A DNA stretch of 64,000 nt from an uncultured Geobacteraceae bacterium (GTDB lineage Bacteria; Desulfobacterota; Desulfuromonadia; Geobacterales; Pseudopelobacteraceae). This document shows, piece after piece, positions 21,655 to 24,500 of the stretch; position 1 is the first letter of the stretch, and every line of letters starts with the position of its first letter. The position numbers and the translations under genes are program-made. Location: NCBI GenBank assembly GCA_903862245.1, contig CAIOXL010000016.1:1-64000 (forward strand), read 5' to 3'. The notes beneath the pieces were generated by a model. It was not told where the DNA came from. It saw nothing but the letters and a program-made list of their open reading frames with translations, and made no database searches.

Positions 21655-22674
21655 CTAAAGCGTTCTGCCGTCCACCTCTGCGAACAACCGCAGTTTCTGC
21701 ATCATCACCTCGAATTTGGCCGGTTTCAGTGACTGGGCGCCGTCTGAGGAGGCGTGTTCCGGATCCGGGTGAACCTCGACGATCAATCCGTCAGCACCCG
21801 CTGCCGCTGCTGCATAGCACATGGGGGCCACATAATGATGATTACCGGTGCCATGGGAGGGATCGATGATAATCGGCAGATGGGTTTTACCTTTGAGAAC
21901 CGGAATTGCTGACAAATCAAGAGTGTTGCGAGTCGCGGTTTCAAACGTGCGTATTCCCCGTTCACAGAGGATGACAAGCTGGTTTCCCTCGCTCATGATA
22001 TATTCGGCACTCATAAGAAGTTCTTGGATCGTCATTGCCATGCCCCGTTTCAGCAACACCGGCTTTCCGAGCTGACCGACTTTCTTCAGCAGCGCGAAGT
22101 TTTGTGAATTGCGGGCCCCAATCTGCAGAATATCGGCGTAATCGGCAACCATTTCGGCAGTTTCAGGGTTAATGACCTCCGTTACGAAGGGGAGACCGGT
22201 CAGTTCACGTGCCTTGGCCAACAGCCTCAATCCTTCTTCCTCAAGCCCCTGAAAAGAATACGGTGATGTGCGCGGTTTGAATGCGCCACCCCGGAGTATA
22301 TGAGCACCGGCCTTTTTCACGGCAAGAGCGGATTCAAGAATCTGTTCTTCGCTCTCAACTGAGCAGGGGCCGGCCATTACGATCATCTGTGTGCCGCCAA
22401 TAACAACGTTGTCACTTATCCGCACCACACTCGACTCCTTTTTCACCTCAAGTGAAGCCAGCTTGTAGGGTTGCAGAATCGGAACAACATTTTCCACACC
22501 ATGGAGCGACTCCAGAGCCTGCAGAGCTGACTTGCCGCGCTCATCGCCGATTGCCCCGATCACGTCACGCGTGGTTCCATGAATCACATGCGACGTATAG
22601 CCCAGCTCTTTGATCCGCCTGAGAACTTCATCCCTGTCTCTTACTGCCGCCCCCGCCTTCATTACTATAATCAT
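21655..22674 (-). CDS. aroF: 3-deoxy-7-phosphoheptulonate (DAHP) synthase with N-terminal regulatory domain
   Basis: ORF to 22752; likely start [26 protein letters not shown] at 22674. [36 protein letters not shown]. Confidence 0.93.
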
Positions 22675-22695: not shown

Positions 22696-22730
22696 CAGCC
22701 AAGGCCGGAAGTTCCTCCCGGCCTTGGCTG
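22696..22730 (-). promoter_or_regulatory. 13-bp perfect hairpin between the attenuator terminator and aroF start
   Basis: CAGCCAAGGCCGG / CCGGCCTTGGCTG with 9-nt loop; 22 nt upstream of the ATG; no poly-U follows. Confidence 0.7.
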
Positions 22731-22750: not shown

Positions 22751-22783
22751 AAAAAACCGGGGAGACTCGCGTCTGCCCCGGTT
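22751..22783 (-). terminator. Attenuator terminator (3:4 hairpin) in the aroF leader
   Basis: Minus strand AACCGGGGCAGACGCGAGTCTCCCCGGTTTTTT: GC-rich stem followed by U run, before the coding sequence. Confidence 0.85.
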
Positions 22784-22809
22784 CGTGGTTTGTGTATTAG
22801 CTTCCTCGC

Positions 22810-22896
22810 TTACACCTCTACCCGGGCAGACGGTCTGAAATAAAAACCGTACCAAAAGATAAAATCAAAAGCGATGCGGAAACTGTGTGCGTTCAT
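22810..22896 (-). CDS. Phe/Tyr/Trp-rich leader peptide of the aroF attenuator
   Basis: MNAHSFRIAFDFIFWYGFYFRPSARVEV*; 10 of 28 residues are Phe/Tyr/Trp; downstream sequence supports alternative RNA structures. An in-frame upstream ATG at 22914 is an alternative start. Confidence 0.75.
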   Translation of the reverse strand: MNAHSFRIAFDFIFWYGFYFRPSARVEV

Positions 22897-23024
22897 AGGT
22901 AGGTACTTAACCATATGGGCAGCCCTGTTGTCAAGGGGGTAATGATGATGTATGTCCGGCTGAACTTGACTCTCTGCAGAGCCTGTGTTAGCTTTTTCCC
23001 TGATATTACAGACAGGGGTACTAC

Positions 23025-24500
23025 ATGTTTTTCCCACCATGCGATACATTTTATGCGCTTGCCGAAAAAGGTAATCTGATTCCGGTCTATCGGGAAATCA
23101 TGGCAGACATGGATACACCCGTATCTGCGTTCAGAAAACTTGACGACGGCCATTTTTCATACCTGCTTGAAAGTATTGAAGGGGGTGAAAAATGGGGGCG
23201 CTACAGCTTTCTTGGCTCTGCACCATCGGTGGTCATTCGTTCAAAGGGGAATACGGTTGAAACAATTTCAGACGGAATATCTGTCTGTCAGGAATCGCCA
23301 GATCCGCTTGCATGCATAAAAGAGCTACTTGCTCAGTACACGCCGGTTGAGGTTGATGGACTCCCCCGTTTTTTTGGTGGTGCAGTCGGCTATCTTGGCT
23401 ATGATATGGTTCGACATTTCGAATCGCTTCCGTCGAATAAACCTGCACTGCTTGATGCCTATGATTCGTATTTTCTTATAACAGACTCCATCGTCATTTT
23501 CGACACCATGCGTCAAAAAATAAAAGTGGTTTCAAATGCCCACATAACAGCTGACATATCACCAGCCGAGGCATATGCCCGGGCTGTTGAAAAAATAGAC
23601 GCCATCATTCTCCAGTTGCGTGCTCCGCTGCCACATTCGAAAGGTTCAATTCCGAAAAAGCCGGTTCAATTTATTTCCAACATCTCCCGTACAAGCTTTG
23701 AGGATGCGGTCGAGAAAGCTAAAAAATATGTAACGTCGGGCGACATAATTCAGGTTGTACTCTCGCAACGGTTCAGCGGCGAACTCACCGCCGACCCGCT
23801 TGATATTTACCGGGTGTTGAGGACGCTCAACCCATCACCGTACATGTTCTTTCTTCGCCTTGACGACACGATAATCGCCGGTGCTTCTCCTGAGGTCATG
23901 GTTCGCAAAGAGGGTGAGCAGGTCGAGTTACGCCCGATAGCCGGGACGCGCCCCAGGGGAGCAACACCTACGGACGACGAGAAACTCGCAGAGGAACTGC
24001 TTGATGATCCAAAGGAACGTGCAGAGCATGTCATGCTTGTGGATCTTGGCAGAAATGATCTGGGACGCGTCTGCACAACCGGTTCTGTCAGCGTCTCGGA
24101 ATTAATGCTCATTGAGCGTTACTCTCACGTCATGCATATTGTTTCAAACGTTCAGGGACAATTGCTGCCCGACCGGGATGCCTTTGATCTGGTGAGAGCA
24201 ACGTTTCCTGCAGGGACCTTGTCTGGCGCACCAAAAATCCGGGCAATGCAGATAATAGACGAGCTTGAACCGGTTCGCCGGGAGGTATATGGGGGGGCGG
24301 TCGGCTATTTTTCTTTTTCAGGAAACATGGATCTCGCCATTACAATCCGCACTCTGGTGATTAAGGATGGGAAGGTTCACCTGCAGGCGGGAGCCGGAAT
24401 AGTCGCCGATTCCGATCCGGCCGCAGAATGGCAGGAAACTGTCAACAAGGGAATGGCTGTCATGCGGGCGGTGGAAATAGCTGAGAGGGGCTTGATATAA
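23025..24500 (+). CDS. trpE: Anthranilate synthase component I
   Basis: 491 aa; [67 protein letters not shown]. Confidence 0.94.

Follow-up and report, generated by a model that had tools for sequence, protein, structure and literature searches.

A predicted ribosome-mediated attenuator with aromatic control codons upstream of aroF in Geobacterales

The leaders pheL-pheA and trpL-trp of Escherichia coli follow a four-region logic in which a ribosome at the stop codon of the leader peptide favours termination. The leader described here resembles them in its control codons and in an antiterminator that shares a strand with an intrinsic terminator, but the E. coli leaders are each devoted to a single amino acid and precede other target genes. 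In E. coli, TyrR and TrpR repress aroF and aroH, which encode DAHP synthases (PMC11802643). The closest known system is aroR-aroF of Corynebacterium glutamicum, where an aromatic-codon leader precedes a DAHP synthase gene and the ribosome stalls; its Phe-Tyr-Phe leader responds to Phe and not to Tyr (PMC11802643, PMC4046766; for the attenuator, Neshat et al. 2014 as described in PMC11802643). The likeness is a functional analogy with a system of another phylum, and it has limits: the present leader contains Phe, Tyr and an invariant Trp, and its RNA core is common to other operons. The trpL gene of Sinorhizobium meliloti likewise encodes an amino-acid attenuator leader peptide (peTrpL; PMC7298713), but one devoted to Trp only that also acts in trans.

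Closer to the organism studied here, the text of PMC545781, which deals with regulation in delta-proteobacteria, speaks of attenuation for THI-elements alone. The Merino database gives a predicted attenuator upstream of the aroA'-aroB' supraoperon of Desulfovibrio vulgaris (Table 7 of PMC1173090, available as an excerpt); within that excerpt the entry is a predicted attenuator only, without a leader peptide, a common core or a Geobacter locus. Since core-type aromatic leaders precede ADH synthase (aroA') genes in the phylum, as reported below, the D. vulgaris attenuator plausibly belongs to the same family. The leader core itself is described neither in Rfam nor in the open-access literature searched: at gathering score, the 4227 Rfam families matched only tRNAs in the window, a relaxed threshold gave nothing relevant to the leader, Pfam and NCBIfam HMMs assigned three leader peptides to no family, and the literature held no description of this leader for Geobacterales or the phylum.

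The leader locus and its conservation

The window analysed is a stretch of 64,000 nucleotides from an uncultured Geobacteraceae bacterium. On its minus strand, a promoter-like region with TTGACA is followed by the leader ORF, by a GC-rich hairpin and its T6 (22783-22751), by another hairpin and by aroF. The features are:

22929-22934, minus strand: -35-like TTGACA of the predicted leader promoter (TTGAC spacing conserved in relatives)
22905-22913, minus strand: extended -10-like TGG-TTAAGT (from the sequence; similar TGN-TTTAGT/TTAAGT in relatives)
22810-22896, minus strand: leader ORF, 28 codons and TAA (kept in 89 of 90 genomes)
22869-22884, minus strand: strand A of helix A:B, codons 5-10 (minimum free energy (MFE) fold; coevolution)
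22844-22850, minus strand: 5' arm of hairpin 1:2, ACGGTTT
22830-22836, minus strand: 3' arm of hairpin 1:2, AGACCGT
22820-22831, minus strand: region 2, GTCTGCCCGGGT, 5' arm of the antiterminator, pairing with region 3 (phylum-wide covariation)
22799-22811, minus strand: strand B, beginning inside the stop codon and reaching 11 nt past it, pairing with strand A
22771-22782, minus strand: region 3, ACCGGGGCAGAC, pairing with region 2 or region 4 (covaries with both)
22755-22766, minus strand: region 4, GTCTCCCCGGTT, 3' arm of the terminator (coevolving arms)
22751-22756, minus strand: U-run of the intrinsic terminator (from the sequence)
22696-22730, minus strand: second hairpin H2, between terminator and aroF (conserved in relatives)
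21655-22674, minus strand: aroF, DAHP synthase of the PRK08673 / DAHP_synth_1 type with a ferredoxin-like N-terminal domain (domain matches)

The leader ORF (22896-22813, with TAA at 22812-22810) encodes MNAHSFRIAFDFIFWYGFYFRPSARVEV, in which nine of 28 codons are aromatic: Phe at positions 6, 10, 12, 14, 18 and 20, two Tyr and one Trp. It reaches eight aromatics per 12 residues, whereas the other short ATG ORFs (516 in the window) have five at most, and the fold energy of the leader RNA lies 4.2 SD below that of dinucleotide shuffles. An earlier note on this DNA had reported the sequence, the ORF, the pairings and the terminator, and all lie at the positions it gave; its counts of Tyr and Trp are also right, while its seven Phe are in fact six. 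The downstream gene, which the note took for a DAHP synthase, encodes a 339-residue product that matches NF006421, PF00793 and the ferredoxin-like N-terminal domain PF18152. Divergent from aroF, the anthranilate synthase pair trpE and trpG, assigned by sequence, starts at 23025. The genome has a second DAHP synthase gene, 56% identical (G000:C49:7195-8181), directly 3' of a gene resembling a Crp/Fnr-type regulator; a leader is absent from its upstream DNA (L266).

Orthologues of aroF were gathered from named genomes and from 141 genomes of the order, and the upstream DNA was read for 90 of the 141. An aromatic leader of the same kind precedes the orthologous aroF in 89 of these 90 Geobacterales genomes. 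In the lone exception (L116), aroF lies directly 3' of another gene and has no leader.

TTGAC lies 35-38 nt upstream of the leader ATG in 99 of 108 leaders. Together with the extended -10-like element, this spacing would place the transcription start at about the leader ATG; a sigma-70 consensus scan made no call at the leader promoter. Because the start would fall near the ATG and the window contains no Shine-Dalgarno sequence ahead of it, the leader mRNA is probably leaderless. The trpL mRNA of S. meliloti is leaderless.

Competing helices and the position of the ribosome

The pairing of region 2 with region 3, as traced in the earlier note, is almost perfectly kept. Across 63 leaders, 503 of the 504 cells for the eight core pairs of helix 2:3 are paired; four of the pairs show double changes, and no shuffle out of 500 reached the covariation score, in permutations that ignore shared ancestry. 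The helix is also found in the phylum loci read with model R1 (below) and a few more outside the training set, where 98.1% is paired and double changes occur at six of the eight pairs; here again 0 of 500 shuffles were as good, shared ancestry being ignored in the same way. The arms of the terminator formed by regions 3 and 4, the other pairing traced in the note, coevolve as well (z -10.5 against -1.8 for the control, from permuted duplex energies that ignore shared ancestry), and this hairpin with its T6 constitutes an intrinsic terminator between the leader ORF and aroF. When 60 cores are aligned, region 3 shows covariation with region 2 and also with region 4, which is the signature of two alternative folds that use one common strand. 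The antiterminator is mutually exclusive with the terminator via this shared strand.

The small hairpin 1:2 of the earlier note is likewise present, with 96% of cells paired in 63 leaders and CG, UA and GC combinations at one pair. The blocking of region 2 that the note ascribed to it does not hold, since the hairpin shares only two bases (22831-22830) with region 2 and does not exclude 2:3. We therefore rejected hairpin 1:2 as an anti-antiterminator on geometry.

A third helix, A:B, is present in the MFE fold of the leader RNA and pairs 22884-22878 with 22805-22799 and 22874-22869 with 22811-22806. Among the 21 leaders alignable here, 83% of its cells are paired, compared with 36-56% when the strands are slid. 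The duplex energies of natural combinations are better than those of permuted ones at z -9.8 (shared ancestry ignored), compared with z -3.0 and -3.7 in controls with one strand reversed. Because A:B encloses region 2 and leaves region 3 outside, A:B and 2:3 are incompatible except as a pseudoknot. On this sequence evidence, A:B is likely the anti-antiterminator that keeps region 2 from region 3.

To relate these helices to the ribosome, the RNA was folded in silico up to region 3 with the ribosome footprint masked. With the A-site at codons 14-16, helix 2:3 formed at -29.5 kcal/mol; it formed at -24.3 kcal/mol with the A-site at codon 18, was weakened at codon 19 (-19.1 kcal/mol) and was lost at codon 20. 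A ribosome at the stop codon covered region 2, and no 2:3 formed. In this model, the effective stall positions are codons 14-18 (Phe, Trp, Tyr, Gly, Phe). The earlier expectation that stalling frees region 2 agrees with the foldings for these codons. A ribosome stalled at Phe20 already covers region 2. That a ribosome at the stop codon permits 3:4 is consistent with the covered region 2. When region 4 was included in the folding, the terminator was always more stable than 2:3, so read-through would depend on 2:3 forming first, that is, on kinetics.

We conclude that the leader is very probably a ribosome-mediated transcription attenuator that governs aroF by sensing when charged aromatic tRNAs run short. 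Transcription would begin at or beside the leader ATG. With charged Phe, Tyr and Trp tRNAs at hand, the ribosome would reach the stop codon and cover region 2, regions 3 and 4 would pair, and transcription would stop before aroF; in untranslated or released RNA, A:B would trap region 2 and termination would follow likewise. A ribosome stalled at codons 14-18 would block A:B and cover hairpin 1:2, leaving region 2 free, and if 2:3 then formed before region 4 was synthesized, RNA polymerase would continue into aroF. The sequences show the ORF, its conservation and the covariation of 2:3, 3:4 and A:B; translation, stalling, the start site, the kinetic order and the choice of amino acids sensed among the three are inferred. 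Ribosome-mediated attenuation was also the reading of the earlier note, and it is sustained by the kept aromatic codons, by the exclusive and covarying 2:3 and 3:4 pairings, by the U-run ahead of a DAHP synthase gene and by ribosome positions that suit it in the foldings. The parallel it drew with the E. coli pheA and trp leaders fits too, with A:B as the blocking helix of the four-region logic.

The second hairpin, H2, may be a second terminator, a relay or a stabilizer of the mRNA. In a rival reading the decision falls at H2, which would act as a second terminator or a translational gate until region 4 pairs with its 5' arm when 2:3 forms, the first hairpin being merely part of the relay. 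H2 is conserved, its 5' arm is complementary to region 4 and the two coevolve (z -5.5, control -0.3, shared ancestry ignored). This reading also draws on the Geomonas-type leaders (L019, L020, L150, L156, L159, L163, L165 and L170), which keep the peptide and region 2 and have a first hairpin without a U-run and a T-rich stretch 3' of the second hairpin instead. The missing U-run of these leaders counts against the main attenuator model. However, the first hairpin carries a textbook U-run in the window and in most relatives, the U-run after H2 in the window is poor, and an H2 relay would add to the main attenuator model more than replace it. We consider a decisive H2 unlikely.

An RNA core shared across the phylum

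A covariance model built from aroF leaders (R1) matches 82 of 297 genomes of the phylum to which the genome of the window belongs. Among the 52 loci read, 49 stand ahead of a gene for aromatic metabolism or for a binding protein, namely 32 DAHP synthases, six ADH synthases, seven PaaK-type ligases, three periplasmic binding proteins and one aminotransferase. The DAHP synthases are of several types, two being class I-alpha and two being, or much resembling, fusions with prephenate dehydratase. A second model (R3), restricted to the core with the aromatic codons left out, matches 161 of the 297 genomes, and 46 of 60 further matches read precede a recognizable gene. These comprise seven DAHP synthase, ten ADH synthase, five shikimate kinase, ten binding-protein, one PaaK, five iorA (indolepyruvate ferredoxin oxidoreductase alpha), two trpE, five trpD and one leuA genes. 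HMM searches matched nine representatives of these classes, several of them as fragments or with scores under the curated cut-off, and the remainder was assigned by sequence reading. The one binding protein compared with NCBIfam had no match there, and some weak R1 or R3 matches look false (L219, L223, L355). An exact match to GTCTGCCC-N28-58-GGGCAGAC is present in 45 genomes, compared with about nine when the pattern is reversed as a control.

Most leaders ahead of iorA, trpE and trpD are rich in Trp, for example MGSRILNLWWWWWGKKRGGVCP, and that before leuA is Leu-rich (MFSFTTTTILAGALLTLLPGLALLRLLVKAACPPFLGRR), with a second case in L235. These Trp and Leu leaders were unused in model-building and their codons fit the function of the gene, which supports a common core with exchangeable codons. 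We favour, with moderate confidence, a phylum-wide attenuator chassis in which a homologous core, GTCTGCCC ... GCCRTGGGCAGAC ... CCCAYGGC-U-run, has been copied to many operons and its control codons exchanged. On this reading mixed Phe, Tyr and Trp codons stand before genes for DAHP synthase, ADH synthase, shikimate kinase, phenylacetate-CoA ligase and binding proteins, Trp codons before iorA, trpE and trpD, Leu codons before leuA, and perhaps Ile or Leu codons elsewhere.

The core also bears on what is conserved in the leader, RNA or peptide. In 35 leaders of 28 codons, eight residues are invariant (F12, W15, G17, F18, F20, S23, A24 and R25), as might be expected if the nascent peptide FWYGFYFRPSAR were an arrest peptide of the TnaC or SecM kind that stalls the ribosome by itself, its sequence being sensed rather than tRNA charging, perhaps with binding of a free amino acid. 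Yet the region-2 codons (21-25) are nearly frozen in Geobacterales with their third positions included, and across the phylum translation of the region-2 motif GTCTGCCC uses each of the three frames (19, 5 and 18 cases, as VCP, GLP and SA). Since different lineages read it in different frames, selection there acts on the RNA and not on the peptide; the frame changes rule out peptide-level selection behind the RPSAR conservation. The Gly and Pro codons of the invariant stretch are accounted for by the 1:2 pairing, and leader peptides of the phylum vary widely in sequence but keep their aromatic codons. An arrest peptide is thus very unlikely. Least probable of all is control of the terminator and hairpins by a protein or small molecule (a TRAP-like protein, T-box or riboswitch) with the ORF secondary, which would suit the strong leader structure but is at odds with the lack of an Rfam match among 4227 families at gathering score or a relevant one below it, with a conserved aromatic ORF that spans region 2, and with same-core leaders that have Trp codons ahead of trp genes or Leu codons ahead of leu genes.

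Several groups of core leaders deserve separate mention. Aromatic-type leaders precede PaaK-type phenylacetate-CoA ligase genes in L184, L195, L199, L203, L206, L214, L227 and L344, and Trp-rich ones precede iorA in L305, L323, L338, L340 and L342; together they suggest a regulated route by which aryl acids are salvaged to make aromatic amino acids. Genes for periplasmic binding proteins of the branched-chain amino acid family follow core leaders in L188, L192, L200, L302, L307 and L322, and further in L324, L327, L328, L336, L346, L352 and L357. Some of these leaders have clear aromatic codons, and the proteins are candidates for uptake of aromatic amino acids or aryl acids. Four Ile- or Leu-rich leaders with core and terminator (L332, L339, L321 and L358) are not followed by any evident biosynthetic gene within the DNA read; are they orphan attenuators or trans-acting RNAs? 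In the genome of the window, weak core matches mostly resemble plain terminators. One of them (L361, C27:1229-1299), before an aminotransferase-like gene and overlapping a short Ala-rich ORF, MMNTIRAYAERAITAAADTAAGLPIVC, is possibly another attenuator. In another phylum, records titled Rokubacteria (L066, L068, L073, L076 and L080) have short aromatic leaders, carrying the GTCTGCCC or GTCCGCCC motif, before DAHP synthase genes, with a U-run after the second hairpin and none after the first.

For Geobacterales, the attenuator would provide a specific mechanism for control of the gateway enzyme of aromatic biosynthesis, a single switch with codons for all three end products. The wider set would place the pathway genes in one predicted regulon with ADH synthase as an alternative first step, with PaaK and IorA as likely means of aryl-acid salvage, and with transporters. 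If the chassis reading is true, one RNA core read in three frames and furnished with differing control codons would make an unusually clear example of attenuators evolving in modular fashion.
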